DNA of 64,000 nt from a bacterium. Lineage in GTDB: Bacteria > Myxococcota_A > Bradymonadia > UBA7976 > UBA1532. Below, piece after piece: positions 26,580 to 43,000 of the stretch; position 1 is the stretch's first letter; the number at the start of each line of letters is the position of its first letter. The DNA lies in contig JAUHYW010000042.1 of NCBI GenBank assembly GCA_030426085.1, positions 1-64,000 on the forward strand, written 5' to 3'. The notes below the pieces were generated by a model that had not been told where the DNA came from, searched no databases, and saw only the letters and a program-made list of their open reading frames with translations. The position numbers were made by a program, and so were the translations under genes.

Positions 26580-28183
26580 CGAGTCATCCGCAGCAGGGAG
26601 GGGCCGGCCTTCTCCAGATCGAGCGCGCCCACCCCGCCGCCGGGTGTCGGGGGCTGCCGGGGACGCCGAGGGCGCTTGGCGTGCAGAGCCTTCGGTGGAT
26701 CCGGCGGCGCCACGTCGATCACCGACGTCACCTGATTCGTCGTGGGATCGCTCGCCCCGCTCGGCGTCGACGGGGGCCGGGGCGGCTCGGCGTCGGCCGG
26801 GGGATTGGAGGTCGCCGGGGACGCCGCGAATATCGGAGGCGCCGGGCGATCGATGACCCGAGGGCCGACGACAGCGCCCACGGCGATCAAGGCGCCGAGC
26901 CAGAGCCACGGTGAGCGGCGCCGGTGGGATCCGACCACGGGTGGTTCGGCCGGGCCATCCGCCTCGGCCTGCGCCGGCTCGGGGCCTGCGGGCGACCGAG
27001 GGTGGACTTCGGAGGGGGCGGAGGCATCGGGCGGGGGCCCATCGGGCGGCACCGGAGCGTCGTCCGCTCGCGTCGTCGGCCCGTCCACCGACGCCTCGGC
27101 GCGGCCGGGCACGAACGTACGGCTGCCATCCGTGCCTCGCCAGCACACGCCCGAGTGGCTCGGCATCTCGTCTCGGGCGGTGCGATCGGCCCGACACTCG
27201 GCCAGCATGTCGCTCAGACCTACCAGCACTGCGGACAGCCCCTCGGGGCGCGCTTGCGGCGACCGGGCCATGATGGACGCCAGAAACGCTCGGGTGCGGG
27301 GGCCGAGCGGCATGTCCAGCGCCTCGACCGGGTCGAAGCCCGCACGACACTTGCGGATGAGAGCCTCACTGGCGTCGAATCGGGAGAACGGGTGCCGCCC
27401 GAGCATGGCTTCGCAGGCGACGACGCCCAAGGCGTACCAGTCGGTCCACGGCCCGAGGGGCTGCTTCAGCGCCTGCTCGGGTGCCATGTAGCGGGGCGTG
27501 CCGGCGTTCACGGTCGTCGAGGCGTCGTCGCCGTAGGTGCGGGCCAACCCGAAATCGGCCAGCCGGACGACCGCCGACCGGTGGGCGACCGCCTGGAGCA
27601 GGACGTTGCCCGGCTTGATGTCCCGATGCACGAGTCCGTGATCGTGGAGCTCCTGGAGCCCGTGCGCCATGGCGGCGACGATGCGATGCCCCTCGCCGGG
27701 CTCGACCCCGTCCTTCAGCACCGCGCGCAGCGTGCGACCGCCCGCGACGTACTCCATGACCAGCCAGGCGCCCTGCGGAGACGTGCCGAAGTCGAGCAGC
27801 CGCACCACGTTGGGGTGATCGATACGCGCGAGCGCGCGGGCTTCCTGGAAGAGACGCGCCGGGGAAGACAGCCCCGACTCGGGTCGCAGGAGCTTGAGCG
27901 CACAGCGCATGCCTATCGGCTGTTGAAGCGCGAGGAAGACCTCACCCGCGCCGCCGGCTCCGATCGGCTCGACGATGAGGTACTTGCCCCCGAGCAGGCG
28001 CCCGGCTCGGGGGTCGAGCCCCGCCCCGCCTCGCGGCAGGTGCCCGGCCGGGATGCAGTGCATCTCATCGCGGCGGCAGAGCGTCCGGGGGCAGGGGGCG
28101 CCGACCGCTCCGATGCGTTCGCAGCGTGGGCAGACCGCGGGCAGCGGCGGGGGTGCGGTGCGCGGACCTCCGGTGGATGACAT
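26576..28183 (-). CDS. Membrane Ser/Thr protein kinase with N-terminal zinc-ribbon-like segment
   Basis: The product (535 aa) starts with a cysteine-rich stretch (CPRCERIG...CPRTLC...C, residues ~18-43) that looks like a zinc ribbon. A Hanks kinase domain follows: GAGGAGEV glycine loop, ALKLL lysine, HRDIKPGNVL, DFGLA, APEQ. A proline-rich juxtamembrane region leads to one TM helix (WLWLGALIAVGAVVG, about 425-440) and a short extracytoplasmic tail. This fits the PknB/Pkn type of myxobacterial signal kinases. It is translationally coupled to the TPR/barrel-like gene. Confidence 0.9.
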   Translation of the reverse strand: MSSTGGPRTAPPPLPAVCPRCERIGAVGAPCPRTLCRRDEMHCIPAGHLPRGGAGLDPRAGRLLGGKYLIVEPIGAGGAGEVFLALQQPIGMRCALKLLRPESGLSSPARLFQEARALARIDHPNVVRLLDFGTSPQGAWLVMEYVAGGRTLRAVLKDGVEPGEGHRIVAAMAHGLQELHDHGLVHRDIKPGNVLLQAVAHRSAVVRLADFGLARTYGDDASTTVNAGTPRYMAPEQALKQPLGPWTDWYALGVVACEAMLGRHPFSRFDASEALIRKCRAGFDPVEALDMPLGPRTRAFLASIMARSPQARPEGLSAVLVGLSDMLAECRADRTARDEMPSHSGVCWRGTDGSRTFVPGRAEASVDGPTTRADDAPVPPDGPPPDASAPSEVHPRSPAGPEPAQAEADGPAEPPVVGSHRRRSPWLWLGALIAVGAVVGPRVIDRPAPPIFAASPATSNPPADAEPPRPPSTPSGASDPTTNQVTSVIDVAPPDPPKALHAKRPRRPRQPPTPGGGVGALDLEKAGPSLLRMTR

Positions 28184-28579
28184 CAGAGAAGCCTCGGCTG
28201 AACGCCACGTTCGTGCAAACCTGACAGATCACGAACGCCGATGCCAGACCGGTTTCCGGGTGCCCGAGAGTGGTTGCCGGAGTTCGGCGAACGGCTGCGC
28301 GGATGGCATACAGAGCATATAGAGGGGCCTGGTGGGGATATGGAGGTATACGGGCGTCGTCTGCCTCTGATGTCATGCGCACGCCAGGATTTTCTTTCAC
28401 ATCGCGGCCCGAGTCCGGCAGGCTCGTAGCCGATGGTCGTCGAGGAGCGCACGGTCGGTGGCGTGTTAGACCCGAGTAATCGATCTCCGGTGCTTGCTCC
28501 GTCAGACTCCAACGCAACGCGAGGTCGCGGGGAGCGTGTCTCGCTGCGCGTATGCGGCAGATTGAGCAGAGGCGGCGAG
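28184..28579. other. Intergenic region between divergent kinase and calcium-repeat genes
   Basis: This 396-bp region has no convincing gene. It is visibly less GC-rich than its surroundings and contains AT-rich patches (CATATAGAGG, TATGGAGGTATACG, AGGATTTTCTTTCAC) that could serve promoters on either strand. It also holds an 8-bp inverted repeat with a 14-nt loop at 28208-28237. No small RNA could be supported. Confidence 0.55.
28208..28237. promoter_or_regulatory. Inverted repeat CGTTCGTG / CACGAACG
   Basis: A perfect 8-bp inverted repeat (CGTTCGTG at 28208-28215, CACGAACG at 28230-28237) lies 25 nt upstream of the kinase start codon. The 14-nt spacer suits a dimeric regulator or a leader hairpin of the kinase mRNA. 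Neither is established. Confidence 0.35.
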
Positions 28580-30469
28580 ATGGTCTATCGTCGGGGTCGG
28601 TGGGGGGAGTTGATGGTGGTCGCAACGCTCGGTCTCGGTCTGTCAGCCGTCGCACAGGCGGGCCCGCCCGGCGGCGACCCCGCCCCCTACTGCATCGACC
28701 TCGCCCGCATCGACCTCGACGGCGTCGACCCGCCGATGGACGCCCGCGGCGGTGGCCTCTGGTTTCCGCTCGACATGCCGGTCGAGTTCGAGGTCCTGCT
28801 CTGCAGCGCAGCCCGGGGTGACATCTGCGCCATCGACCCCACGGTGTATCAGGGGCGGCGGGTCTATGTGCACCCCCGGGGCGCCGTCGCCATCGACATG
28901 ATCGACCCCCGAGCGAACGGATGGGCCGAGCCCGCGTGGGCCATGCTGCAGGATCGGGGGCGAGCCCCGGTGCCTCCGCTGGTGATGCCCCAGCTCCTCT
29001 CCTCGCCCGTGCTCGTGCGCTCGGCGCGGCTCGGCCTGCCCGGCGAGGCCCTGGACGCGCTCTTCATCGTGTGGGGGGCCGAGGGCGACGAACTCTTCAG
29101 CGTCCTGCTGCGTGTGCTGCCTCCACCCGACGGCCGGCGCCCGCTCCCGCCCGGCGAGGAGCCGCCCAGCCACCAGCTCGTCGCCGACATCGTCTACTAC
29201 CGCTGCGCGCTCGACGTGTGCGATGCCGGGGTCGATATCTGCGCCGGCTACCACGATGGCATCACCGGTCATCCGTTCGACTGGGACGGCGCCCGCGAGG
29301 TGCTCTGCGAGCCGCACGAGCGCTTCGAGCGCCCCGACGCACCACAGTTCGAGCAGGCCGCGGCGTCGGGCGCCCTCGGGCGGCCCGATCCCATCTGTGG
29401 CGGTGAGCCGACCTTCAGCATGCGGCGACCCTTCCCGAGCCGGCTGGCCCGGGAGTACACCGTCGAGGACGACCTGGACGGTGTGCTCGACTGCGTGGGC
29501 GGGGCCGGGGTCGGGTGCGACAACTGCCCGGGGGAGTTCAACCCCGACCAGCTCGACTCCGACGGGGACGGCGTCGGCGATCTGTGCAGCGACTGCGACC
29601 ACGACGGCGACGGGCTCTACGACGACCCGAGCCACGCGGACATGCCGCGATGCCGGGGGCTCAGCCCCAAGCCCTTCGACAACTGCCCCTTCGTCCCCAA
29701 CCCGGTCGAGGGCTTCCTCGAGATTCAGGCCGACACCGACGGGGACGGTGTCGGCGACGCCTGCGACAACTGCGTCGAGGTCCCAAACTACGCCGACCCG
29801 TTCGCGGGGCCCCAGGCCGATCTGGACCGCGACGGGCAGGGCGACGCGTGTGACACCGACGCGGACGGCGACTTCGTCATCGACGTGGGCGACAATTGCC
29901 CCCGGGTCGTCAACCCGGCGCAGACCGACGGTGATGGGGACGGCGTCGGCGACGCGTGTGATCCGGACATCGACGGGGACGGGCAGCCCAACGACGCCGA
30001 CCTGTGCCCCTTCCTGCCGAGCCGGTGGCATCCCTGGCCCTGGTGTGATCCCTTCAGTGACGGGCAGATGCCGGACGCCGACGGGGACGGTGTCATCGAC
30101 AAGTGGGATCTCTGCCCGCTCGTCCCGGCGGCCGCGGACAACGACGAGGACGGCGACGGTCGCGGCGCGATGTGCGACGCCGATGACGACGGGGATCTGT
30201 TGCTGGACGCGTGTGACGAGGACTGCTGGGTTGGCTTGGATGACCCGTGCCGGCTGGGGCCGCTCATGATGCGTCTGAGGCGAGATGACAGGTGGGATGA
30301 CCCGGAGATCTGTGGAGCGGCGCGCGCGTGGCGAGATGTCGCGGCCGGCCTCGCGGAGGGCACGCGGGAGCCAGAGCCGTTGCCCATGCCGCCCCTGCCG
30401 GATGACGCGAACGGCGCGAACGGCGCGAACAGCGCAGGCGGCTTCTCCTTCGGGCCCTGGGGGCAGTGA
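28580..30469 (+). CDS. Secreted thrombospondin type-3-repeat protein
   Basis: ATG 28580 is chosen because it gives a proper signal peptide with an Arg-rich n-region (MVYRRGRWGEL) and cleavage after AQA; ATG 28613 has a good GGGGGAG ahead but would lose the positive n-region. The 629-residue product has a domain of unknown type followed by several D-x-D-G-D-G-x-G-D-x-C-D calcium-binding repeats (residues ~340-560), the type-3 repeats of thrombospondins and OmpA-linked calcium proteins. No C-terminal anchor was seen. The following gene overlaps the stop (TGATG). Confidence 0.8.
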   Translation: MVYRRGRWGELMVVATLGLGLSAVAQAGPPGGDPAPYCIDLARIDLDGVDPPMDARGGGLWFPLDMPVEFEVLLCSAARGDICAIDPTVYQGRRVYVHPRGAVAIDMIDPRANGWAEPAWAMLQDRGRAPVPPLVMPQLLSSPVLVRSARLGLPGEALDALFIVWGAEGDELFSVLLRVLPPPDGRRPLPPGEEPPSHQLVADIVYYRCALDVCDAGVDICAGYHDGITGHPFDWDGAREVLCEPHERFERPDAPQFEQAAASGALGRPDPICGGEPTFSMRRPFPSRLAREYTVEDDLDGVLDCVGGAGVGCDNCPGEFNPDQLDSDGDGVGDLCSDCDHDGDGLYDDPSHADMPRCRGLSPKPFDNCPFVPNPVEGFLEIQADTDGDGVGDACDNCVEVPNYADPFAGPQADLDRDGQGDACDTDADGDFVIDVGDNCPRVVNPAQTDGDGDGVGDACDPDIDGDGQPNDADLCPFLPSRWHPWPWCDPFSDGQMPDADGDGVIDKWDLCPLVPAAADNDEDGDGRGAMCDADDDGDLLLDACDEDCWVGLDDPCRLGPLMMRLRRDDRWDDPEICGAARAWRDVAAGLAEGTREPEPLPMPPLPDDANGANGANSAGGFSFGPWGQ

Positions 30470-33192
30470 TGGGCGCTGAGACGGGCATCGGGCCCAGGGG
30501 CCGGGCAATACGCGACTCACAGTGGTGTCTGCGAGCCCGACCAGCGGCGGTGATCACCCCGATCGGATCGAGTCGTTCATCATGGGCCCCGACGTGGCTC
30601 CGGGTCGGGCTGATCGTGCTGGCATCACTCGCTGTGGCCCCGGCCGCGGCGCAGGTCTGCCAGCGCGCCGGGCAGCCCCTCGCCTTCGAGGCGGTGCCGT
30701 TCGCCGACGCGGCGATCCCCGGTGTCACCCAGGGGGTCATCCAAGCGCCCCAGGCGCGGGCCCGCATCGGGTCGGGGGCGCTCGTCGATGTCTTCGGGGG
30801 CGACATCCCCTGGTACGGCCATCGGGTGCCGGTGCCCGAAGACGAGCGGCTGGTCTCCGAAGAGGACGCCATCATCGTCAGCCGGTGGGGCGCGCTCACT
30901 TTGCAGAACGTCGCCGGGCATCTGGCGGAGCCCTGGATCGGTGATCTGGCCCCGCTGCCCCGCTCCCCCGATGACGGCCCCGCCCGTCCCATGATCGCGG
31001 CGCTGCAATCGCAGCACGGCTTCGAGCGCGTCGAGTGGCGCCTGGGGCACACCGCCGAGCCCGCCCCCCGCGCGATGTTGATGGTGCGGTGGTCCGACGG
31101 CGAGCTCGGGGCCGGCGGGGCGCATGTGCGGCTCCTCGTCAGCCGCGCGCTCGATGCCCCCGACGCGCCGCTGCGGATCGAGCTGGGCTACGCGGGCTGC
31201 GACGCGCTCCCGATCGACGAGGCGCTCGTGGGCTTCGACGAAGGCATCGCCGAAGAGGGGGGCGCGTTCGTCGCTGGCCGGGGGTGGACCTCACCAGCGT
31301 CGAACCTCGGGGCGCCCGCGGCGCAGTGGCCGGCGCTCCTGTGCCTCGTCTCGAACGTCGGTGAGCCGGGGATCTGGGTCTACGAGCTGATCGACGGCCT
31401 GCCCACCGGCTGCGGCATCGACGACGACCCGCCGGCCGCGGCCTGCGAGCCCGGCGGCGTGTGTCGGGCGGGCGACATCACCTACGACGACGGCTGCACG
31501 GCCGACTGCCGCTGCGAGCTCCCGCCCGACGAGAACGGATGTCGGACGCCGCCCGCCGGCGCGCTCGATCCGCTGTGTCTCTACGGCGCCGGCGACGACC
31601 CCCGCTGCTTCGACCGCGACGTGGATGGTGACGGCGTGATCTGGGATCCGGCCGCGCAGCGCTTCGACGACATCTGCCCGCTCGTCGCCCGGCCGCGGGG
31701 CCTGCACCCGGCGCAGCTCGACACCCGCTACGCGGCCAACGGCTCCGCGTGCTTGCTGGACCGCCACGGCGACCTCACCGACCACCTCGATTGGGATGGC
31801 GACGGCGAGGGCGACATGTGCGACTTCAACAGCGACGACGACGCCATCCCCGACTGCGGCTTCGACGGGGTCTGCCCCCCGTGGCGCAACGGGGCCGACG
31901 ACGACCAGGACGGACGGGTCGACGAGATGCCGTTCGGCGAGCCGGGGGAGTGCTTCGCGCCCGGCTCGTGTCGCTATGGCGACAACGCGCTCGACGACGA
32001 CGGCGACACCCGGGTGGACGAGGAGGGCGAGTGGTACCCGTGGAGCCCCGAAGAGTCGGACGACGACCTGTGCCCCCGCACCTACGAGCTCGCCCGGGTC
32101 GACTCCGACGGCGACGGCGTCGGTGATGCCTGCGACCTCGACGCCGATGGCGACGGCGTCCTCGACTGCGGCCGGGATGGTATCTGCCATCCGCAGTTCG
32201 ATCGCATCGACTCCGACCTCGACCGGCAGGTGGACGAGGCGTGGAGCTGCGAGAACGATCTGCTCGTGGATCTGTGTCTGCCCGGCGTCGACGATGACGC
32301 CGATGGCATCGTCGACGAGGACGCCGAGTGTGCCCGCGTCGGCCCCTGTGTACCCAACGGCTTCGACGAGGACGCCGACGGCGTCGTCGACGAGGTCGAC
32401 TGCGAGGGGGCGGTGGGCATCGGCATCATCCGCCGCAATCGCGTGGACGATGACTGCGACGGGGTGGTCGACGAGATCGGCGAGGCCGGCGTCGACGATC
32501 TGCCCCGGGGGTGCCAACCGCGAGATGCGATGTACGACGATGGTCGGGACAACTGCCCCGACGTCGCCAACCGGGATCAGGCCGATCTGGACGGCGACGG
32601 GGTGGGGGATGCCTGTGACATCGAGCGAGACGGCGATGGCATCCGCGACCTCGTCGACAACTGCCCCGGCGTCGCCAACCGCGACCAGGCCGACCAGGAC
32701 GGGGACGGCGTCGGCGACGCGTGCGAGACGGATCTCGACGGCGACGGGGTGCTCGACGTGGACGATGTCTGCCCATACCTACCCGACGCGGGCCAGGGTG
32801 ATCTCGACGGCGACGGCGCGGGCGACGCGTGCGACGACGACGACGACGGCGATGGCTGGCCCGACGCGCTCGATGATTGCCCCGTGGTGCCTGGCGACGT
32901 GCGCGGCTGCCCCCAGGCGCCGGAGCCTGAGCCGGAGCCGGACGCCATGCTGCCCGATCCCGAGCCGGACGCAGGTCCGGAGCCGGAGCCGGAGCCGGTA
33001 GACATGGGTCCGCCCGAGGAGATCTGCACCGGGGGCGGCAGCGATGAGGCGCGGACGCTGAAGAGGCAGCGATGCCCGAATCACCCCGACCCGGAGAACT
33101 GCCGGATCGGTCTGCCGACGACCCCCACTCGGGGGTGGCCTCTGCTCGCGTTGTTGTTCGGGTTCGCGTGGCGTCGCCGCGCGCGGCGGTGA
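30469..33192 (+). CDS. Secreted calcium-repeat protein with MYXO-CTERM-like tail
   Basis: The product is 907 aa if it starts at ATG 30469, overlapping the previous stop. The start is uncertain because the signal-like hydrophobic segment (LIVLASLAVAPAAAQ) sits ~35 residues in. It is Asp/Cys-rich with D-G-D-G-V-G-D-A-C-D repeats over most of residues 380-810, then a Pro/Glu-rich spacer. The C-terminus is Cys, a spacer, LLALLFGFAW and RRRARR, resembling a MYXO-CTERM signal. It is probably exported with its upstream paralogue and anchored at the surface after processing. Confidence 0.75.
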   Translation: MGAETGIGPRGRAIRDSQWCLRARPAAVITPIGSSRSSWAPTWLRVGLIVLASLAVAPAAAQVCQRAGQPLAFEAVPFADAAIPGVTQGVIQAPQARARIGSGALVDVFGGDIPWYGHRVPVPEDERLVSEEDAIIVSRWGALTLQNVAGHLAEPWIGDLAPLPRSPDDGPARPMIAALQSQHGFERVEWRLGHTAEPAPRAMLMVRWSDGELGAGGAHVRLLVSRALDAPDAPLRIELGYAGCDALPIDEALVGFDEGIAEEGGAFVAGRGWTSPASNLGAPAAQWPALLCLVSNVGEPGIWVYELIDGLPTGCGIDDDPPAAACEPGGVCRAGDITYDDGCTADCRCELPPDENGCRTPPAGALDPLCLYGAGDDPRCFDRDVDGDGVIWDPAAQRFDDICPLVARPRGLHPAQLDTRYAANGSACLLDRHGDLTDHLDWDGDGEGDMCDFNSDDDAIPDCGFDGVCPPWRNGADDDQDGRVDEMPFGEPGECFAPGSCRYGDNALDDDGDTRVDEEGEWYPWSPEESDDDLCPRTYELARVDSDGDGVGDACDLDADGDGVLDCGRDGICHPQFDRIDSDLDRQVDEAWSCENDLLVDLCLPGVDDDADGIVDEDAECARVGPCVPNGFDEDADGVVDEVDCEGAVGIGIIRRNRVDDDCDGVVDEIGEAGVDDLPRGCQPRDAMYDDGRDNCPDVANRDQADLDGDGVGDACDIERDGDGIRDLVDNCPGVANRDQADQDGDGVGDACETDLDGDGVLDVDDVCPYLPDAGQGDLDGDGAGDACDDDDDGDGWPDALDDCPVVPGDVRGCPQAPEPEPEPDAMLPDPEPDAGPEPEPEPVDMGPPEEICTGGGSDEARTLKRQRCPNHPDPENCRIGLPTTPTRGWPLLALLFGFAWRRRARR

Positions 33193-33213: not shown

Positions 33214-34776
33214 CTACCAGAGCTTCCACCACGGCTTGTCGCCGCCCTCGGCTTCCTCGGCGCCGCCCTCGGCCTGACGACCGGCGTCCTCCGGGCGCTG
33301 CCCACTGTCCGTGGCCTGTGTGGCCTGCGGGGCAGGGGACCCGCTCGCCTGCCTCGGGCCCCCGCCGCCCGCGGGGCCCGGCCCGTAGCCGTGCTTCGCG
33401 TGCAGCGCGGCGACCCGCTCGAGCAGCGGCTGCCCCTTCGCGGGGTCGACCATGAACACGAAGCTCGCGAACCCGCCGATCGCCGCCAGTACGTCGGCCT
33501 GGGGATCGCCCCACACCTTGCCCTCGGGCCCGTCCTGCTCGATCTGGAACAGCGTCGCTCGGAACCGCCGCAGCGTCGCCCGCTCCACCCCGACCCGCTC
33601 GTTGACCGTCAGCCCGGTGACCTCCTGCCGGCGGCCGCGGCGCAGGATCCGGGTCTTGTCGGGGTGCACCGTGAAGCCCTCGCGCCCCACCAGATAGCGC
33701 ACGCGCCGGAGCAGCTTGCCCACCGCCTCGCTGCTGGCGTCGTCGCCGGAGAACGTCAGATCGTCGGCGTAGCGGGTGTAGGTGAAGCCGCTGTTCGTCG
33801 CCAGCGTGGTCAGCGCGCGGTCCAGGCGGCGGCAGATGATGTTCGTCAGCGCCGGGCTCGTCGGGGCGCCCTGCGGCAGAGCGCGGGTGTCGTGGGCGAC
33901 GTACCAGGTGCGCCCGTCGAGCTGGAGTTCGTCGATCTCGGGCTCGGTGCACAGCAGCGCGAGGATCGTCGACGCCGACGGCGAGTAGCCCAGCGCCTTG
34001 AACTGACCCCAGACCCGGGGGAAGCCGACCGTCGGGAAGAAGTCCTCGAGGTCGAGGTTGACCACCACCGCCCGGCCGACGTGCGGCGCGGCGTTGCTCA
34101 CGATGGAGCGGCCGGGCACGAAGCCATGGGCCGCGTCGTGCAGCGGGATCGGGTGCAGGATGTTGTCCAGGATCCAGCGCTGGGCCCGCTTCAAGCGAGG
34201 CATCGGCGCCGAGATGAGCCGGGTGCCGCCGGTCTTCTTGGGCAGTTCGAAGCGCCGATAATGGGTCGTCTGGCTCACCCGCCGGGCGAAGGCGAGGAAC
34301 CGCAGCTCGCCCATGCCGATGCCCATCGCCCGGGCGATCGCCGCGCCGTCGGTCAGCTCGGGCAGCCCGTGCTCGGCGAGGCGGGCCCGCTCGACGGTGG
34401 TCTGGTTCAGGGCGCCCGACTCGCCGGCCCCGATGAACGTGATCGCGGTCGCCTTGCGTCGGCGCCAGGCTTCGGCCCGCGCCTGCCGCTCGGCCTCGCG
34501 GCGGGCCTTGGTCTCCTCCCGCTTGCGGCGGGATTCGGCCATGCGCTGCTTGCGGATCTCGCGCAGCAGAGCCGCCTCGTCGCGCAGCCGGGCCTGCTCG
34601 TCGCGCAGCCGGCGCAGCTCGGCCCGCAGCTCGCCTTGCAGCTTCATGTCGGCTTGCAGGCTGTCGGGGCCCCCGGCGTCGGGATCCCAGAAGCCCAGCC
34701 GGATCATCTCGTGCAGGATGTACTCCTGCTTCGAGGTCTGCCGGATGCGGGCGTATATCTCGGCGCGGCTGGTCAT
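33214..34776 (-). CDS. Retron-type reverse transcriptase
   Basis: This is a 520-residue retron RT. Domain 1 (about 1-150) is basic and helical with coiled-coil-like ELRAELRRLRDEQARLRDEA. The RT core follows, with retron marks: NAAPH (NAxxH of region X, about 225-229), LDLEDFFPTV, PQGAPTSPALTN, TRYADDL (catalytic YADD, about 335) and EVTGLTV (VTG of region Y, about 385). It should copy the msd RNA into branched single-stranded DNA. The long N-terminal domain is like the Mx162-type myxobacterial enzymes. The RT lies downstream of its noncoding locus on the same strand. The C-terminal ~60 residues are low-complexity. Confidence 0.93.
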   Translation of the reverse strand: MTSRAEIYARIRQTSKQEYILHEMIRLGFWDPDAGGPDSLQADMKLQGELRAELRRLRDEQARLRDEAALLREIRKQRMAESRRKREETKARREAERQARAEAWRRRKATAITFIGAGESGALNQTTVERARLAEHGLPELTDGAAIARAMGIGMGELRFLAFARRVSQTTHYRRFELPKKTGGTRLISAPMPRLKRAQRWILDNILHPIPLHDAAHGFVPGRSIVSNAAPHVGRAVVVNLDLEDFFPTVGFPRVWGQFKALGYSPSASTILALLCTEPEIDELQLDGRTWYVAHDTRALPQGAPTSPALTNIICRRLDRALTTLATNSGFTYTRYADDLTFSGDDASSEAVGKLLRRVRYLVGREGFTVHPDKTRILRRGRRQEVTGLTVNERVGVERATLRRFRATLFQIEQDGPEGKVWGDPQADVLAAIGGFASFVFMVDPAKGQPLLERVAALHAKHGYGPGPAGGGGPRQASGSPAPQATQATDSGQRPEDAGRQAEGGAEEAEGGDKPWWKLW

Positions 34777-34797
34777 GGCAGGCGGCTGGTCATGGCA
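34767..34797 (-). repeat. 17-bp duplication over the RT start codon
   Basis: The 14-base string GGCTGGTCATGGCA occurs twice on the plus strand, 17 nt apart (34767-34780 and 34784-34797). On the coding strand this puts a second ATG-ACC-AGC-CGC 17 nt upstream of the RT start. The upstream ATG (34793) opens a six-codon frame, Met-Thr-Ser-Arg-Leu-Pro, whose stop overlaps the RT ATG. Confidence 0.7.
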
Positions 34798-34805
34798 GAA
34801 AAGGT

Positions 34806-35032
34806 GAACGCGCGCGGGATCGGCCTTCGAAGAAGCTGTCGACTGGACGGCTCAACTCACCGCGGGGAGGGGGCCCCGTGGGATGCGGGGCTCTCGCGAG
34901 CCCACACCGTGAGCATCCGACGGGGCCCCTTCCCCGCTCAGTTACGAGCCGGCCAGTGATGCGTGATCGACCATGCGGCACGGACGGCGATCCGCCGCCC
35001 GGGTTGCAAAGCTGTCGACCCCGCGCGCGCTC
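34806..35032 (-). ncRNA. Retron msr-msd noncoding RNA locus
   Basis: The region between the SWIM gene and the RT gene, read on the minus strand, has retron architecture. It starts with a1 (35032-35016), which pairs with a2 (34822-34806) over 17 positions with only two G-U wobbles. Next are a small msr hairpin (35000-34982, GGGCGGCG-GAT-CGCCGTCC, one G-U) and an AGC (35013-35011) just after a1 that supplies a candidate branching guanosine at 35012. A 90-nt imperfect hairpin follows (34943-34854) whose 18-bp arms differ at one pair and whose tip is GGGCTC-GCGA-GAGCCC. This order matches msr, msd and the a1/a2 stem. The predicted DNA product is about 90-125 nt. Confidence 0.85.
34854..34943 (-). 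repeat. msd long imperfect inverted repeat
   Basis: The two arms begin AACTGAGCGGGG on one side and end CCCCGCGGTGAGTT on the other. Inside, an 18-bp stem with one A-C mismatch, a C-C mismatch, a 6-bp GGATGC/GCATCC stem, a 9-nt against 1-nt internal loop and the GGGCTC/GAGCCC tip with GCGA loop complete the hairpin. There is no downstream T-run, so it is not a simple terminator. Confidence 0.85.
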
Positions 35033-35045
35033 GAGAATCTCCTTA

Positions 35046-36686
35046 TCATCGGGCCCGCGCCGCCGCCATCCTCAACGCGAGGATGTGGGCGCACGGGCCG
35101 CGTCTGAGTTTGTTGCGAAAATGCCAGCGGCAGCCACACTCGGCCGCCCGCAGGCGCTCGTCCTCGTCGATGCGGGCGCTGACCTCGAGCTGGCGTGATT
35201 CGTCGCGCACCGTGCCGCTCAGGTTCAGGTGACCCTCGCCGTCCAGGCGCTGGCTGCGCACCCGGACCCGGCGGTTGTCGACCAGATGGGTCGCGGTCTC
35301 TTCCCGCTCGCTGGCGAAGCGCAGCCGGTCCATCGGCAGCGGATCCCGGCTCAGCTCGCGGGCGCGGTAGACCCCGGCGTGCAGATCGAAGATGGCCCGC
35401 CCGGCCTGGGCCCACGCGCCGAGGGCGCCGAGCACGGTCGAGCGCTCCAGGCCGAGCCGGGCGCTCAGCTCGTCGGGCGTCGCCAGCCAGGTCTCTCTCA
35501 AGCCCTCGAAGACCCGCCGCTTCGTATCATCGTCCACCTCGGCTCGGGGCGCCATGAGATCGAAGTTGCCGGCCGTCGACCAGTCATTGGCCGTCCAGCC
35601 CGACAGGCCCAGGGTGAAGACCATCGATCCCATGTCGGCCACGTAGAACGACGGCATGCCTTTGCCGAGCAGGTGCACGGTGAAGCGATGGGTCACCGGG
35701 ATCAGCCGCTCGAGGATGTGGATGCGCCGCCGGCCCCACACCCGGATCTCGGTCGCCTCGGGCCCCTCGTAGACCGATCGGGGGCACTCGATGACATGGT
35801 TCCACGGCTCGAAGACCACCTTCACCGGCTCGCCGGGGGTGAGGCAATAGCGCATCGAGCGCGGGCCGCGGGTCTCTTTGTGGCGCCGCAGGAAGAGGCA
35901 GAAGTTGTAGACATCCAGCGGGTGCAGGTCGACCGTCGTCGCCGGCAGCGCCATCGCCGAGCTGACCTGGAGGAAGCCCCGGACCCAGCTATCGGGCAGG
36001 TCGATCTTGACCTCGCGCAGCGTCTCTTCGCCGGTCGTCGCGACCTCGAAGCCCCCCGGGTCGACCTTCAGCGACGTCGTCTTGTAGGTCCGGATCTTCT
36101 GGAACTCGTCGTACAGCGCCGCCGAGTAGTCGATGTTCGTCGTGCCGCAGGCCCGGTCGCCGACCTCGTCGAACTCCTCGTAGCGGGCCGCGAGGCAGCC
36201 ATAGGTCGACTCGTCCTTGCTGAAACACTCGAAGAAGACTTGATCGGGGTGCACCGTGATGACCGGATCGAGCACCAGCCACGCCTGATAGTCCCGGGTG
36301 TAGAGATAGTCGAAGTAGCGCCGCTGGGCCCGATAGAACGGCTGCATGCGCCGGCTGACCCGCTGGTCGACGGCCTGCAACTCCCGGCTGATGCGCTCGA
36401 TCTGCGATCGCACGCTCGCGCTGCGGGTCATCGCGGCGATGAGATCGCGCTCCTCCTGCTGGGCCAGCCATGCCTTGTAGGCCGCGCGATCCTTGGGGGT
36501 GTAGCGCAGATCGCTGATCACCACGTCGTGCAGCGCGCTGATGGCTTCCCGGAACTCGATGCCCGCCCGCAGGCGGCCTTCGAAGTGGGTCGGCGGGCGG
36601 GTCGCGTCGGGCACGAAGCTCAGAGCGCTGGCGGTCGGCGTGTTCCGGACCGCGGTGTGCCCCTGATAGGCGTAGCGGAACTCCAT
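35046..36686 (-). CDS. Winged-helix and SWIM zinc-finger protein (retron accessory)
   Basis: The 546-residue product begins at ATG 36686, overlapping the stop of the upstream gene (ATGA). It ends with CGCRWHFRN...CAHIL, the C-x-C-xn-C-x-H set of a SWIM zinc finger (about 515-540). Before that, residues ~385-450 (RVFEGLRETWLATPDELSARLGL..STVLGALGAW) read like a winged helix. The N-terminal half is not recognised. SWIM domains bind nucleic acid or protein. The combination is known from retron-linked proteins (WHSWIM) and from WGR/MoxR neighbourhoods. The msr-msd locus begins 14 nt after its stop. Confidence 0.8.
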   Translation of the reverse strand: MEFRYAYQGHTAVRNTPTASALSFVPDATRPPTHFEGRLRAGIEFREAISALHDVVISDLRYTPKDRAAYKAWLAQQEERDLIAAMTRSASVRSQIERISRELQAVDQRVSRRMQPFYRAQRRYFDYLYTRDYQAWLVLDPVITVHPDQVFFECFSKDESTYGCLAARYEEFDEVGDRACGTTNIDYSAALYDEFQKIRTYKTTSLKVDPGGFEVATTGEETLREVKIDLPDSWVRGFLQVSSAMALPATTVDLHPLDVYNFCLFLRRHKETRGPRSMRYCLTPGEPVKVVFEPWNHVIECPRSVYEGPEATEIRVWGRRRIHILERLIPVTHRFTVHLLGKGMPSFYVADMGSMVFTLGLSGWTANDWSTAGNFDLMAPRAEVDDDTKRRVFEGLRETWLATPDELSARLGLERSTVLGALGAWAQAGRAIFDLHAGVYRARELSRDPLPMDRLRFASEREETATHLVDNRRVRVRSQRLDGEGHLNLSGTVRDESRQLEVSARIDEDERLRAAECGCRWHFRNKLRRGPCAHILALRMAAARAR

Positions 36687-39600
36687 CAGGCCCCCCGCTC
36701 GGCGGATCCGGCGCGCACCGGCGGCGCGACGACGGTGATCGGCAGCGTGACGTCGGGCCAGCGGTGGTGGATGGCGGCCATCGTCCGGATGCACGCGGCG
36801 CGGTCTTCGACGGCGGTCGTCGCCGACTGGCGGGTGACGATGCGGGCGACGATCTCCGCGCTGCGCCGGTCGGCGAGCGCCTCGTCCCGCAGGAAGGCGT
36901 GAGCCCGCTGCTTGGCGGGGCGGCCGCGGTTGACGCCGCACAGCACCCGGATGAAGTACGGGGCCAGCTTCGCCAGCGTCTCCGGGTCGCCCGCCGCGTG
37001 CTCCCGCAGGTAGTTGCTCGCGAAGAGCTGCACGTCGCTCGACGGGTGCTCGCTCAGCTCGAGCAGGTAGCGTCGGCCATGGGTCGGGTCGAAGTGCTTC
37101 GCGATGAGCGCGCGCCCGAAGCGCTGCACGTCGGGGCGCACGCTGTCACAGACGCTCACCAGCACCGTCGCGCCGTCTTCACCGGCGAAGTCGCCGGCAT
37201 CGAACCGGGTGTCGAAGAGATCAAACGCGAACAGCCGGGTGTCTTCCCATCGGCTGTCGAGGACGGCCACCGCCTCGGCCAACGCGTTCTTGAGCCGGGG
37301 GACGGCCAGCGTCATCGCCTGCCACGCGGCCTCGCGCACCGACCTCACCTCGTGATCGGCCAGCTCGACGAGCTGATCGATGCCGATGGTCGCGGGGTCG
37401 AGGTGGTGGGGCAGCAGGTGCCCGCCCAGCTCCTGCGCGGCGCCCTCCTTGCTGCGCAGCAGGCGCCACGCGACCTCGGCCGGCACCCGCTTCAGGCCCT
37501 CGGCGAAGTCCTCGCGCAGCACCGTCACCACGAACTCGGGCACCCCGTCGGGCAGGCGCCGACGCAGCAGCGAGGCGATGAGCATCTGGAGGATCTGGCC
37601 GCCGAACGCCGGATCATGGTCGGCGAGGCGCTTGATGATGGGTCGGGCGGCGTCGCGGATCGTGCCATCGCGGTGGGTCAGCGACGACCACAAGAGGTCG
37701 GTCGCTTCGCGCAGCGTCGTGTCGTCGAGCAGGCCCAGGATGCGCAGCGCGATGACCCGGACCTCGGCGTGGGTCGACGACAAGAGCCCGCTCAGCGCCG
37801 ATGGGGCGATGGGCACGGTGCGCTCGGCCATCAGCCGGGCGGCGTAGCTCTGCACGACCGCCAGCGGGTGCCCCGCCAGATCGACCACGACCGGCTCGCC
37901 CAGCCCGGCCACGGCCGCGGTGAAGAAGTCGTCGAGCAGCGCGATGAGCCGGGTCGCGGTGGCGACGTCGTCCGGCCCGCGGCAGCCCATCATGTGGGCG
38001 ATGAGCGCCCCGGCGAGGGTCCGCGCGGTGTCCCGGTCGAAGCGCATGCCCCGCAGCAGATTGCGCATGCTCGATCGGACGTCGTCGTAGCCCGAGCCCG
38101 CCAACCGGGCCAGATCGGCCGGTGCGTCGAGCAGGAGCTGCGGCTCGCGCTCGAGCCACGACAGGCCGCTGCGGCGGGCGTCGGTCACGATGCTCTGCGC
38201 CATCGCCACCGCCAGCGTGCGCCGCTCGGCGGCCGGCAGCCCCGGGCGGCGATAGCGGGTGCGGGCCAGCTCGGCGCCCAGCTCGGCGGTCACCGGGTAG
38301 CGGGCCCCGATGATGACCGCCAGCCCGGCGGCGGGCAGCGCGTCGAGGAAGCGATCCTGCGCCCGCAGCGCGCGGGCGGCGAAGGCATGCACCGGCTGGC
38401 AGCGGCTGCCGTCGACGAGCTGCATCAGCCCGGCCGGCGTGCGATCCCACAGGTGGGGGAAGGCCTCCTGTCGGGTCTCGTCCTCCCGCTCGCGGCGGCG
38501 GTTCCGGCGGCTGGCGCGGCTGCTGCGGCTCTGCCAGCTCCGATAGCTCTGCCGATCGCGGTCGTAGAGGATGCGGTTGAAGGGTCGATCGCTGGCGAAC
38601 AGGTTGCGGTCGTCGTCGGTGTAGCCCAGCAGCACGCCCACGGCCATCGGCACGTAGTCATCGCCGTCGAGATCACCCATGCGGCGCAGCGTGCGCCAGG
38701 TGCGTCGGCGCAGGTAGTCCCGGGTCTTGCTGCCATAGGCCAGCGACGCGTCGACGCTGCGCAGCGCCCGGCTGGGATCGTAGACCCGGCGGGTCGAGCC
38801 ATCGGGCCGCTGGACCCAGGCCTTGCCCCGGCGGCTGATGTCGAACATGGCCCGGGTCGTCGCGAAGCGGTGGGCCACCAGGCCGAAGATGCGGGCGTCG
38901 AGGCGCAGCTCGGCGACCTTGAAGATGGCCCGCACGCGCTGGAAGGCCGGCGGGCGCAGGGGCACGTCGGGCAACACCGCCTCGACCGCGGCCCGCGCGG
39001 CGGGGGTGTTCATCAGATACAGCGTCTCGAGCGCCGCCCACCGCTTGCGGTCGTCGCTGCCGAACGGCGTCGGCTCGCCGTCTTCGCCCGGTGAGCCGGC
39101 GAGGTGGGCCCGCAGCGCCTCGGTGAGCGCGCGGGCGTCGTCGCTGCGCAGCGGCTCGGGCAGTCGGCGGCGCAGGCTGTCGACGAAGGCGGCCTTCTCG
39201 TCGCCGGTGAACAGCTCGCCCAGCGCGGCGGCGGCGACGCGGGCGACGTGCGGTGGGGTGCCCGGATCGCGATACAGCCGCACGAGCGGCCCGGTGGCCG
39301 AGGCGTCGCCGCAGCGGGCGAGGGCCCACGCTGCGCAGTAGTCGCGCATGGCGTCGCCGGTGCCGATGAGGCCGACGAGCAGGGGCGTCGCCTCGCTCAG
39401 CTTCAGCTCGCCGGCCCGCCACATCGCCCGGGTCAGGGACCACGAGCCGTCACCCGAGCGCGTCCGCGGGGTCCGTCGACCGCTGCGGCCTCGCCGCTGC
39501 GCGCGCAGGGCGGCCTGGATCTCGCGTCGGGAGCGGCCGGCCCGGCTCGAGCGGACCTCGGGCGCGGGGGCCCGGGACCCGCCGGCGCGGAGCCGATCGC

Positions 39601-40000
39601 CGCGGGCGAGCCGATCGAGGGTGGCCTGGGCTCGGGGGTCGCTCACCCGGGGCGCGCTGCGCGAGGGCGGGGCGGGCGGCGAGGCAGCGGACCGCGGGGT
39701 GGGGGAGGGGGCCGGCGCCGGCTCGGGCTCCGGTTCGGGCTCGGGGGCCGGGGCGAACGACGGCCCGCCCACGTAGCCCTGGGCCTGCTTCTGCTCGATG
39801 AGCTTGCGGAAGGCGGCCCGGGCCCGGGCCTCGGGCACCGGCTGGACCGTCTGGGTGCCCTCCTTGAGCGGCTTGCCCCGCCGACCATAGCGGTAGTTCA
39901 CCACGAAGCGGTCGTCGCCCACGGCGCAGAGATCGATCTCGTAGACCTTCTCGCTGCGCCCCCGGGTGAAGACCAGGGTGACCTGCTCGACGAGCCGCAT
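36686..40000 (-). CDS. WGR-domain protein with HEAT/ARM repeats (retron accessory)
   Basis: Residues 1-75 form a WGR domain with Y-G-R at 38-40 in place of the namesake Trp; WGR domains (PARP1, MolR) bind nucleic acid ends. A long Pro/Glu/Ala linker (about 85-150) leads to ~900 residues of helical repeats (RLYRDPGTPPHVARVAAAAL, HAEVRVIALRILGLL, DHEVRSVREAAWQAM) typical of HEAT/ARM scaffolds. An Arg/Ser-rich loop sits near 490-515. There is no signal peptide or TM. At 1104 aa it is the largest protein of the cassette. It overlaps the SWIM gene and begins 17 nt after the propeller gene ends. Confidence 0.85.
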   Translation of the reverse strand: MRLVEQVTLVFTRGRSEKVYEIDLCAVGDDRFVVNYRYGRRGKPLKEGTQTVQPVPEARARAAFRKLIEQKQAQGYVGGPSFAPAPEPEPEPEPAPAPSPTPRSAASPPAPPSRSAPRVSDPRAQATLDRLARGDRLRAGGSRAPAPEVRSSRAGRSRREIQAALRAQRRGRSGRRTPRTRSGDGSWSLTRAMWRAGELKLSEATPLLVGLIGTGDAMRDYCAAWALARCGDASATGPLVRLYRDPGTPPHVARVAAAALGELFTGDEKAAFVDSLRRRLPEPLRSDDARALTEALRAHLAGSPGEDGEPTPFGSDDRKRWAALETLYLMNTPAARAAVEAVLPDVPLRPPAFQRVRAIFKVAELRLDARIFGLVAHRFATTRAMFDISRRGKAWVQRPDGSTRRVYDPSRALRSVDASLAYGSKTRDYLRRRTWRTLRRMGDLDGDDYVPMAVGVLLGYTDDDRNLFASDRPFNRILYDRDRQSYRSWQSRSSRASRRNRRREREDETRQEAFPHLWDRTPAGLMQLVDGSRCQPVHAFAARALRAQDRFLDALPAAGLAVIIGARYPVTAELGAELARTRYRRPGLPAAERRTLAVAMAQSIVTDARRSGLSWLEREPQLLLDAPADLARLAGSGYDDVRSSMRNLLRGMRFDRDTARTLAGALIAHMMGCRGPDDVATATRLIALLDDFFTAAVAGLGEPVVVDLAGHPLAVVQSYAARLMAERTVPIAPSALSGLLSSTHAEVRVIALRILGLLDDTTLREATDLLWSSLTHRDGTIRDAARPIIKRLADHDPAFGGQILQMLIASLLRRRLPDGVPEFVVTVLREDFAEGLKRVPAEVAWRLLRSKEGAAQELGGHLLPHHLDPATIGIDQLVELADHEVRSVREAAWQAMTLAVPRLKNALAEAVAVLDSRWEDTRLFAFDLFDTRFDAGDFAGEDGATVLVSVCDSVRPDVQRFGRALIAKHFDPTHGRRYLLELSEHPSSDVQLFASNYLREHAAGDPETLAKLAPYFIRVLCGVNRGRPAKQRAHAFLRDEALADRRSAEIVARIVTRQSATTAVEDRAACIRTMAAIHHRWPDVTLPITVVAPPVRAGSAERGA

Positions 40001-40017
40001 GCTGTGCTCGACCTCCG

Positions 40018-41448
40018 TCAGTCCTCGAGCCGCCGGATGTCACCATACGCCCGATAGAAGCCGCCGCGCGAGGACTCCTTGACCGAGTCGACCACGTAGC
40101 GGGCCCCCTTCTCGCGCAGGTTGCGGGGGAACTGCACGTTCCAGTCCTTGTTGTAGCCGTCGCTGGCCACCCGGACCCGCAGCTTCGAGCCCTCTGCGTA
40201 GCACTCGAGCACGACCCCGTCGCCGACGTCCGCGGTGCGGGCCATGTTGGCGGTGGTCGCCGTCTGCACCGCGGGCGCGGCGGCGGCGGCCTTGATGTTG
40301 CGGGCCTTGGGCACCGTGCCGGCCTTCGCCGCCTCGATGGCCTCCTCGCGGGCGTCGAGGCAGGCGAGGGCGCCGGTGGTCGTCACGATGTACAGCCGGT
40401 CGGCGTGGTACTGCATCGAGAACGCCGAGCCGCAGCCGGTGCCCAGCTTCCACAGCCGCTCGCCGTTCTCGCCGAAGCAGTAGATCGACGAGCTGGAGTC
40501 CCCGGCGAAGACGTACTTGCCGTCGCCGGTGGCCGCGCAGGAGAACACCGACCCGTCGCACTTGTAGGTGCCCATCGGCTCGCCCTGCTTGCCGAAGCGA
40601 TAGACCTTGTCGTCCGAGCAGCCGGCGTAGACCGTCGTCGGCTCCTGCCAGCCGAACAGCACCGAGCCCCGGGTGTTCTGGTGCCAGATCTGGGAGCCGT
40701 CCTCCCAGTCGTACATCGTCACCCCGCCCGAGTGGCCGTGGTAGACCCCGATGTCATCGCAGCGGACCATCCAGCCCGACGAGCCCTTCGACTTCTGCTG
40801 CCACTGGGTGACGTCCTCGTGGTTGAAGACGTGCACCGAGCCCTTGGCGTCGGCCACCCCGAGCACGCCGTCGGCGATGTCGAGCCAGTAGATGTCGACG
40901 TTCTCGTCGATCTCGTAGGCCACCGCGGGCATCTTGCCGGTGAGATCGTAGACGTTGCCGTCGTCGCAGCCGACGTAGAGCCAGTCGTCGTCGCGCACGA
41001 TGCACTTGACGCCGTCGGGCAGCTTGAACTCGCGCTGCACCTGCCCCTCGTGGTCCAGCGAGAAGACCCGCCCGGCCTCGTTGCCGACCCACGCCCCGCG
41101 GTCGTCGACGAAGACGCCGAAGGCCGACCGGCCGGTGTCGAACTTCCACAGGATGGGGGCCTTCTTGGCCGACGAGCGGGTGCTCTGGATGGTGCGCCGG
41201 GTGATGGCCCGCCGCTGGCGCACGCCCATCACCGCGTCTTCGTAGCCCTTGCGCTTCTTGCTCTTGATCTTCTTCTCGGCCTCTTTGAGCGCCTTCTCTT
41301 CGCTGGCGAAGGTCTTGCTGCTCTTCTGGCCATCGGTCCCGATGCGCCCGTAGCGGATGGTCATCGTCGAGCCGTCGACGACGACCTCGTAGAACTTGTG
41401 GGAGACGCCTTGATCCTCGGAGAGTTCGAGGTAGGTCCGGTGCGCCAT
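40018..41448 (-). CDS. WGR-domain protein with beta-propeller (PQQ/WD-like)
   Basis: ATG 41448 follows AGGAG and gives a 476-residue protein. Residues 1-75 are a WGR domain (Y33-G34-R35, then basic KKIKSKKRKGY). The central ~290 residues are repeated strands such as GAWVGNEAGRVFSLD, DDWLYVGCDDGNVYDL, TTVYAGCSDDKVYRF and KYVFAGDSSSSIYCF, a PQQ/WD-like propeller of about seven blades. A small C-terminal domain (VVLECYAEGSKLRVRVASDG) follows. Such a pair could bind nucleic acid ends through WGR and a partner through the propeller. It is the first gene of the retron unit and is not a core component I know of. Confidence 0.85.
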   Translation of the reverse strand: MAHRTYLELSEDQGVSHKFYEVVVDGSTMTIRYGRIGTDGQKSSKTFASEEKALKEAEKKIKSKKRKGYEDAVMGVRQRRAITRRTIQSTRSSAKKAPILWKFDTGRSAFGVFVDDRGAWVGNEAGRVFSLDHEGQVQREFKLPDGVKCIVRDDDWLYVGCDDGNVYDLTGKMPAVAYEIDENVDIYWLDIADGVLGVADAKGSVHVFNHEDVTQWQQKSKGSSGWMVRCDDIGVYHGHSGGVTMYDWEDGSQIWHQNTRGSVLFGWQEPTTVYAGCSDDKVYRFGKQGEPMGTYKCDGSVFSCAATGDGKYVFAGDSSSSIYCFGENGERLWKLGTGCGSAFSMQYHADRLYIVTTTGALACLDAREEAIEAAKAGTVPKARNIKAAAAAPAVQTATTANMARTADVGDGVVLECYAEGSKLRVRVASDGYNKDWNVQFPRNLREKGARYVVDSVKESSRGGFYRAYGDIRRLED

Positions 41449-41608: not shown

Positions 41609-43000
41609 TCAGCTCTTGCGCAGGCAGCAGCGCTTGTACTTGCGGCCGCTGCCGCAGGGGCAGGGGTCGTTGCGCCCGACGCGGACCTTCTTGTGAGCCG
41701 GGACCTTGCGGCCGAAGTACTCCTGGTTGTAGCGGATGTTGTCCCGGGCCCGCTCGATGGCCGGGGTGAAGCGCATGCGCCGCAGATGCGCGGCGGGCAC
41801 GTACAGATCGGCCGCCTCCTTGTCGGCGGCCCAGACGGTGAGCATGCCCAGCCACATGAACATGTCGGGGTTCTCGCCGAAGGCCGACTCGGACTGCGCG
41901 ATCATCCATGGCCCGGCCAGGGCCATCGGCAGGTCGTCGAGCGTGGGATCGGGCTGGCCTTCGACGCTCACGATGCAGCTCAGCATGGCCTCGCGCAGCG
42001 CCTGCCAGCCGACCTCGGGCGCGCGCATCGCGAGCAGCATCGGCTGCACCAGAGCCTCGGTCGCCGTCGCGTCCATCTCGTGGGCGGGATCGGTGAAGAC
42101 CGGCGCGCTGCGGTCGGCGAGCACGCCTAAGACCGATGGGGCGAACTCGGGGTGGCGCACGGCGATGGCCACCAGCGACATCGCCGACTGCGCCGCCTGC
42201 AGGTAGCCCTCGGCCTCGCGCCAGCGTCGGCGGTGGCTCGACTCGAGCCGCGGCCCCATCCGCCCCGCCAGCCACGCCGCCCGGATCATCGGCCCGGTCT
42301 GAAGCAGCACGAAGGCCGGCGCGGTCAGCGGGTCGAGGACGCGCTCGGGCTGCGCGTCGATGCGCGCCAGCATTTGATCGAGGTCGAGCGCGCCGAACAG
42401 CATCAGCACATGGCCCATGGCCTCGACGTTGTCCCCGTAGCGCTCCATGACCCGGGTCATCGCCTTGTCCCGGCGGGCGCGCTGGCGAGCCCCTGCGTTG
42501 CGCCGGATCTCGGCCAGCGACAGGTGCAGCTCGTGCCACAGCTTCAGCAGCGCCCGCTCCAGCAGGGGGGCGAGCGCGAACAGCGCCTCGAAGTCCTCCC
42601 GGGCCAGCCGCACGCCGGCTTCGAGCAGGCGCTCGAACAGCCCGAAGAGACCGCCCCGCAGCTCGACCCGATCTTCGACCCGCCCGGTCCGGGCCGACGC
42701 CTCGATGGCCGCCTGCGCGACGTCCCGGGGCACGACCTGCACGTCGCCGACCCGCATGCCGGGGCCGAGGCAGGTCACAAACCGACCCTCGCGGGTGACG
42801 ATGATGTGCGGTGGCTTGCGCCCATCGGCCAGCGCGATGGCCACCCGCTCGTCGGCGTCGGGTGCGCGCTCGCTGTCCGCCGAGCCGGCGAGCGCGATGC
42901 GCACGGCGCGCGGGTCGCGGTACAGACCCAGCGCCAGCTCGAGCTGGGCGTCGCCTCGCAACCGCTCCAGGCGCGAGAGGAAGTGTGCGGCGTGTCCCAT
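41609..43000 (-). CDS. SEC-C zinc-motif protein
   Basis: This 463-residue cytoplasmic protein ends in VGRNDPCPCGSGRKYKRCC, the SecA C-terminal zinc motif (C-x-C-x8-C-C) found in SEC-C proteins that bind SecB or other partners. The rest is helical and not recognised (AIERARDNIRYNQEYFG, LLEAGVRLAREDFEALF). The start at 43000 has GGAGGG upstream. It is on the same strand as the retron unit but 160 bp upstream, so co-transcription is possible but not shown. No signal peptide is visible. Confidence 0.75.
   Translation of the reverse strand: MGHAAHFLSRLERLRGDAQLELALGLYRDPRAVRIALAGSADSERAPDADERVAIALADGRKPPHIIVTREGRFVTCLGPGMRVGDVQVVPRDVAQAAIEASARTGRVEDRVELRGGLFGLFERLLEAGVRLAREDFEALFALAPLLERALLKLWHELHLSLAEIRRNAGARQRARRDKAMTRVMERYGDNVEAMGHVLMLFGALDLDQMLARIDAQPERVLDPLTAPAFVLLQTGPMIRAAWLAGRMGPRLESSHRRRWREAEGYLQAAQSAMSLVAIAVRHPEFAPSVLGVLADRSAPVFTDPAHEMDATATEALVQPMLLAMRAPEVGWQALREAMLSCIVSVEGQPDPTLDDLPMALAGPWMIAQSESAFGENPDMFMWLGMLTVWAADKEAADLYVPAAHLRRMRFTPAIERARDNIRYNQEYFGRKVPAHKKVRVGRNDPCPCGSGRKYKRCCLRKS

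Follow-up and report, generated by a model that had tools for sequence, protein, structure and literature searches.

An extended type XIII retron with a recurrent WGR-propeller accessory and a SWIM protein of predicted sliding-clamp-like fold

The 64,000-nucleotide stretch of contig JAUHYW010000042.1 analysed here (referred to below as the window) carries a retron cassette at positions 33214–41448, which its sequence matches identify as a complete type XIII retron in extended form. All components lie on the minus strand, in the order WGR-propeller gene, WGR-HEAT gene, SWIM protein gene, msr-msd RNA and reverse transcriptase (RT) gene. An earlier note on this DNA had described four minus-strand genes and one noncoding locus, and four open reading frames (ORFs) and a structured intergenic RNA are indeed present at this place. 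Its gap of 17 nucleotides (nt) between the first two genes is also correct (stop at 40018, start at 40000). Two further junctions needed revision: the WGR-HEAT stop and the SWIM start share a single base (TGATG at 36688–36684) rather than a 4 nt ATGA overlap, and the distance from the SWIM stop (35046) to the start of repeat a1 of the RNA (35032) is 13 nt, not 14.

The first gene (40018–41448) encodes a protein of 476 amino acids (aa) with a WGR domain (aa 4–72, 41233–41439; Pfam 3.9e-21), a PQQ/WD40-type beta-propeller, also recognised by Pfam (aa 97–366, 40351–41160), and a C-terminal domain designated PCT (aa ~409–475, 40024–40224), which is small, all-beta and without a Pfam family. The second protein (1104 aa, 36686–40000) combines HEAT repeats (HEAT_2, 6e-12) with a WGR domain (aa 7–77, 39770–39982) whose Pfam match of 1.3e-4 is barely over the gathering score. 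The third (546 aa, 35046–36686) comprises a predicted sliding-clamp-like core, a winged helix (aa 386–442, 35361–35531; from weak sequence matches and the structure model), a beta domain and a SWIM zinc finger with the motif CxC...CxH (C517, C519, C532 and H534; 35085–35138), for which the Pfam match is sub-threshold. The RT (520 aa, 33214–34776; RVT_1, 3.6e-25) has at its exact C-terminus the peptide DKPWWKLW (33217–33240), which is conserved among relatives.

The assignment to type XIII, already proposed in the earlier note, is borne out by PADLOC. RT_XIII matches the RT with 1.7e-183 and 608.9 bits (next best model 329.5), WGR_XIII matches the WGR-HEAT protein over its full length (1.3e-290), and SWIM_XIII covers nearly the full length of the SWIM protein (8.4e-235). 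Because these matches extend over nearly the full length of the proteins, the core can be read as a textbook type XIII retron. The gene order of the type is kept in relatives, and the retron marks NAxxH, YADD and VTG noted previously are found in the RT translation as SNAAPH, RYADD and EVTGL. The description of type XIII as an RT with a winged-helix-SWIM and a HEAT/ARM protein thus fits the cassette, with the correction that, by its sequence match, the WGR-HEAT protein is itself an already catalogued component (WGR_XIII), and therefore the WGR-propeller alone is extra. The latter matches the PADLOC type XIII models weakly, via its WGR domain. Searches against Pfam, PADLOC and NCBIfam detected no toxic or enzymatic domain in any partner protein, and NCBIfam has no family for the WGR-HEAT or the SWIM protein.

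The msr-msd RNA (34806–35032, from a1 to a2) was delimited by its fold, by covariation and with a covariance model. The complementary repeats a1 (GAGCGCGCGCGGGGTCG, 35016–35032) and a2 (CGATCCCGCGCGCGTTC, 34806–34822) enclose a conserved msr stem-loop (CTTTGCAACCCGGGCGGCGGATCGCCGTCC, 34982–35011; helix 1, 100% of cells paired), a long msd hairpin seen in the fold (34862–34939) and a conserved 3' core (GAGTTGAGCCGTCCAGTC, 34841–34858) that pairs with a TCACTGG region (helix 2, 96.7% paired). The fold of the window RNA has a z of -7.4. Among 13 Myxococcota loci sharing this intergenic RNA, 31 of 52 predicted pairs are backed by two-sided changes, and a1/a2 pairing of 15–38 nt occurs in 12 of the 13 even though the repeat sequences differ. 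For 11 of these loci none of 200 shuffles paired as well (10 of 200 did so for L035; L numbers denote loci), and in the 13th, L039, the arms are placed further out as judged by eye. When 30 RNAs from Myxococcota, Cyanobacteria, Acidobacteria, Planctomycetes and Gammaproteobacteria were compared, 89.5% of cells were paired and covariation was 0.533, as against 0.190 +/- 0.011 after shuffling and no more than 0.13 when the structures were slid. The covariance model scores the window copy at 134.9 bits (E 2.4e-38) and, with lower scores, also recovers the RNA in five more distant HEAT-ARM-type loci. The RNA is real, far beyond chance. Rfam gave zero matches in the window at gathering thresholds; PADLOC includes msr-msd models by its own statement (PMC9252829), and an RNA of this type may already be modelled there. 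The RNA can also be multiplied: an Acidobacteria metagenome-assembled genome (MAG) has four tandem copies, ~255 nt apart, in the SWIM-RT interval (L139:11733–12710), and two copies are found in L122, L129, L160, L168, L172, L174, L186 and L190.

Homologues of the WGR-propeller protein, 56–91% identical, lie beside type XIII genes in 11 of the best 80 SWIM loci of a genome collection (L117, L131, L133, L134, L136, L137, L139, L143, L155, L164 and L189); of these, L164 belongs to the culturable Archangium violaceum Cb vi76. They are placed before the WGR-HEAT gene, after the RT gene or convergent to the cassette, and they form the commonest non-core neighbour family and the only listed one that spans four phyla. 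On the SWIM tree, which was built without L136 and L137, adjacency of the propeller requires at least 7 changes. Its PCT domain (~65–90 residues) also occurs in frame at the C-terminus of the RT, once in Planctomycetes (L144:12035–13735) and twice in cyanobacteria (L197:6124–7758 and L218:7267–8976), and as a tandem pair on VWA proteins which lie beside the RT or between the SWIM protein and the RT (L131, L133 and L195). In Myxococcota, the SWIM protein was found in 18 of 18 propeller/PCT-positive genomes, compared with a background of 59 of 379 (hypergeometric p 2e-16 by genome and 9e-11 by genus, with phylogeny and genome size not fully corrected). On the strength of these sequence comparisons the WGR-propeller is a genuine, recurrent accessory of type XIII retrons in four phyla and not a local oddity. 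The earlier note had placed the first gene outside the known type; it is indeed missing from the PADLOC set, but it recurs in other cassettes. Going by the PADLOC models, the propeller is not known to have been described as a part of type XIII. The idea that stand-alone propellers are tied to some other conserved system was rejected, as no neighbour shared by them was found beyond local synteny.

The SWIM protein was modelled from 30 sequences. In the model, aa 33–363 (35598–36590) form a predicted PCNA-like two-domain clamp, interrupted by a coiled-coil insertion (aa 68–131, 36294–36485). All 50 matches listed by Foldseek for the PDB are PCNA-type clamps, the best with E 2.6e-8, probability 1.00 and a target TM of ~0.65, and in a viral structure library PCNA, DnaN or processivity factors make up the majority of the named matches. 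The strands and helices of aa 250–361 follow the order of one clamp domain, and pLDDT is mostly 78–95 for aa 250–360; aa 33–232 would then be the other domain, split by the coiled coil. Three of the four predicted ring helices carry basic charge, and a weak profile alignment places SWIM residues 315–360 on the C-terminus of PCNA in the expected register. From the model, the SWIM_XIII core probably adopts a two-domain sliding-clamp (PCNA-like) fold.

Another recurrent feature is the end of the RT. Outside the cyanobacteria, the protein typically runs out into a long, variable and disordered linker, and the motif [WRKG]W[KRQ][LIVM][WF] then makes up its very last residues. Among genome-collection loci this motif terminates 22 of 25 complete non-cyanobacterial RTs (Myxococcota 17/17, Acidobacteria 3/3, Gammaproteobacteria 1/2, Planctomycetes 1/2, Deltaproteobacterium 0/1), and one of the remaining three, that of L144, has a PCT domain where the tail would be. 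It was absent from all 23 cyanobacterial RTs and from 1931 other ORFs. The pattern was written after the tails had been seen, and therefore the background count rather than the fit is the test. In a separately fetched Myxococcota set, whose loci are partly shared with the first, 9 of 13 RTs including that of the window have the motif, and the other four end in divergent, mostly W-rich tails. An ATP-dependent DNA ligase with a SWIM finger adjoins the propeller gene in L136 (3997–5415), L137 (2191–5481) and L143 (8006–9184). Two of these ligases have related peptides at the N-terminus (PKETPWWKK in L136, PKEKPWWKR in L137), while that of L143 lacks one. The peptide is not general to related ligases, a possibility we rejected since it is missing from all four further ones examined (one retron-adjacent, three elsewhere). 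In L225 the ligase lies away from a retron and appears by eye to have a WGR domain at its N-terminus instead. Polymerase C-termini and ligase N-termini are the classic sites of clamp-binding peptides; by this analogy the RT and ligase peptides resemble clamp-client tails, which would fit the clamp prediction.

The family is chromosomal. No SWIM match was obtained in 50,697 phage records, and only one strong match among 72,556 plasmid records. The best 80 loci come from Cyanobacteria, Myxococcota, Acidobacteria, Planctomycetes and Gammaproteobacteria, together with one record named Deltaproteobacteria; 59 of 379 Myxococcota genomes and 12 of 244 cyanobacterial genomes are positive. Some ORF calls rest on a simple composition rule, and assembly gaps are possible in the cyanobacterial and MAG loci. 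The cyanobacterial SWIM proteins cluster together on the tree, and for several of them the surrounding 10 kb or so contains no RT. A type XIII-like RT was nevertheless present in all 22 cyanobacterial genomes examined, split or not (E <= 4.1e-148). In most split genomes it is the SWIM gene, not the RT gene, that has the RNA beside or near it; in G389, by contrast, the RNA adjoins the RT and a propeller. The trans-split loci are L129, L130, L147, L148, L150, L153, L157, L159 and L180, with the RT loci L197–L209. Together with the RT-PCT fusions, the tandem RNAs and the recurrent propeller, this trans-split arrangement has a bearing on the design of retron searches: tools that insist on adjacency of RT and RNA will overlook split retrons.

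Of the ways in which these components might work together, we tentatively favour one in which an RT-msDNA, a clamp-like SWIM protein and WGR scaffolds survey DNA, and we would call this model as a whole nearly an even bet. The RT would copy the RNA into msDNA and remain bound to it. Its long disordered tail, ending in the WWKLW peptide, would anchor the RT to a partner, most likely the SWIM protein; the core of the SWIM protein would form a sliding-clamp-like ring on DNA, with the winged helix and SWIM finger attached. The WGR domain is known as a binder of DNA breaks in PARP1-3; the WGR-HEAT and WGR-propeller proteins could accordingly serve as scaffolds, with their WGR domains detecting breaks and nicks in DNA or the ends of msDNA. 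Because PCT is part of the RT in other genomes, the PCT domain of the propeller may contact the RT module, which would make the propeller an adaptor. The assembled particle would most likely monitor DNA replication or breaks, with defence against replication-disturbing phages as its likeliest use, and would act by loading the clamp/WGR complex on DNA or blocking it, without the release of a classical toxin. An anti-phage role is plausible. A bolder formulation, which is possible but which we regard as doubtful, is that type XIII retrons bring their own sliding clamp: the RT with its C-terminal peptide and some ligases with their N-terminal peptide would dock on the PCNA-like SWIM protein, giving a small machine for DNA synthesis or surveillance around msDNA, with the WGR-propeller as adaptor, which in cyanobacteria would work in trans, the RT gene being unlinked from the template RNA. 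Few retron classes are as poorly understood as type XIII, whose partners lack a recognisable toxin, and a predicted clamp fold together with clamp-client-like peptides on RT and ligase offers a concrete, testable mechanism, which would depart from the toxin-antitoxin logic of the retrons studied so far.

Several observations weigh against this proposal. The model of the SWIM protein has a mean pLDDT of 68.6 and a pTM of 0.56; domain 2 is modelled better than domain 1, in which pLDDT is low in parts. A comparison of the SWIM profile with three hand-typed PCNA sequences was not significant (E 0.066–0.081), and searching PDB sequences with SWIM profiles yielded winged-helix, FANCL and coiled-coil matches, all of them weak. 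The clamp similarity might therefore be an artefact of a medium-confidence model, but this seems improbable to us, as clamps were returned by two independent structure libraries, aa 250–361 reproduce the strand and helix order of one clamp domain with high pLDDT, the weak profile match falls in the same register and the ring helices are basic. The WWKLW peptide might bind the propeller or the HEAT protein instead of the SWIM protein. A ligase of the retron-adjacent kind was not found in the window's genome in a search of 20 genomes, and our literature search found no experiment on type XIII activity and no paper on its function, the one mention being a PADLOC annotation in Variovorax. The propeller is missing from most type XIII loci, and in Cyanobacteria it also occurs without type XIII: there the propeller and SWIM sets (19 and 12 of 244 genomes) overlap in 2, with p 0.24, and because this co-occurrence is not above chance the propeller family must have a separate life too. 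These stand-alone genes, which exist in Myxococcota as well, would suit the view that the propeller is a mere chance neighbour. We consider that view very remote and largely refuted by the recurrence of the family across four phyla, its upstream, downstream and convergent arrangements, the RT-PCT fusions and the complete genome co-occurrence in Myxococcota.

Two broader alternatives concern function. The first, along the lines of the earlier note, which had msDNA and RT hold WGR/SWIM effectors inactive, is a classical retron abortive infection, with RT-msDNA silencing a toxic WGR/SWIM/HEAT effector until a phage disturbs it. Other retron types are reported to act in this way (e.g. PMC12548924, PMC13405049), and PADLOC counts type XIII among its candidate defence systems. 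As stated, the suggestion is unsupported, since the searches revealed no toxin or enzyme domain among the partners and the SWIM model points to a clamp-like protein; it is further weakened by the chromosomal nature of the family with its near absence from phages and plasmids, by the separation of the RT from the RNA and SWIM genes in many cyanobacteria, and by the lack of a convincing defence island around the window cassette. We therefore rate it as rather unlikely. The neighbourhood comparison which the same note had proposed found homologues co-occurring with the RT in other genomes, so that the lack of co-occurrence it had named as grounds for rejecting its reading was not observed. The other alternative is cellular DNA maintenance, in replication stress or break repair, by a chromosomal RT with a clamp-like protein, WGR break sensors and sometimes a DNA ligase. 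The predicted clamp fold, the WGR domains and SWIM-DNA ligase neighbours, the clustering of the cyanobacterial SWIM proteins, the conservation of split genes and the rarity on mobile elements would all agree with it, but a presence as patchy as that in Myxococcota and Cyanobacteria would sooner be expected of accessory defence, and the ligase was not found in the window's genome. We see it as unlikely, and keep to DNA surveillance by RT-msDNA, clamp-like SWIM protein and WGR scaffolds as the preferred reading.

The cassette is flanked by genes for TSP_3-repeat, SEC-C and MarR proteins, an oxidoreductase and a dehydroquinate synthase, and comparison of the flanking genes with Pfam and PADLOC gave no convincing defence island. 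Two adjacent plus-strand thrombospondin type 3 repeat proteins occupy 28433–33192. The SEC-C motif protein just upstream (41609–43000) has a weak PADLOC PDC-S12 match that involves the SEC-C tail only. PADLOC kinase models also match a kinase at 26576–28183, probably on account of the kinase domain. The window's genome has a second, distant type XIII-like locus (L068, on G000:C112) with genes for two large proteins (773 and 2116 aa), a SWIM protein (38% identical) and an RT. In another distant type XIII-like locus, a WGR protein of 147 aa directly follows the RT (L090:11965–12408).

Compared with the type XIII retron of PADLOC (RT_XIII, WGR_XIII, SWIM_XIII, HEAT-ARM_XIII), the cassette agrees in its RT, WGR-HEAT and SWIM proteins over their full length and in the RNA between SWIM and RT genes, and differs by the added WGR-propeller, the docking-like terminal peptide of the RT and the predicted clamp fold, none of which has to our knowledge been described for this type. 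The RTs of retrons Ec86 and Ec67, for which structures are solved, are homologous to that of the window (phmmer E 4e-39 and 1e-33), but the match spans the RT domain only and not the N-terminal extension or C-terminal tail; their partners are unrelated to those found here. PCNA and other DNA sliding clamps resemble the SWIM_XIII protein in the predicted fold of aa 33–363. They differ in that SWIM_XIII has no significant sequence homology to PCNA, has a coiled-coil insertion and is fused to a winged helix and a SWIM finger, and in that the ring is known for PCNA but is a prediction for SWIM_XIII. On an Asticcacaulis plasmid (L221:7782–12070), the gene for a distant SWIM zinc finger protein (23–25% identity) overlaps a large downstream DUF6493 gene. 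In contrast to the cassette, no RT is annotated in the L221 stretch, and this pair of a SWIM protein and a large partner may be related to the SWIM/HEAT pair but free of an RT.

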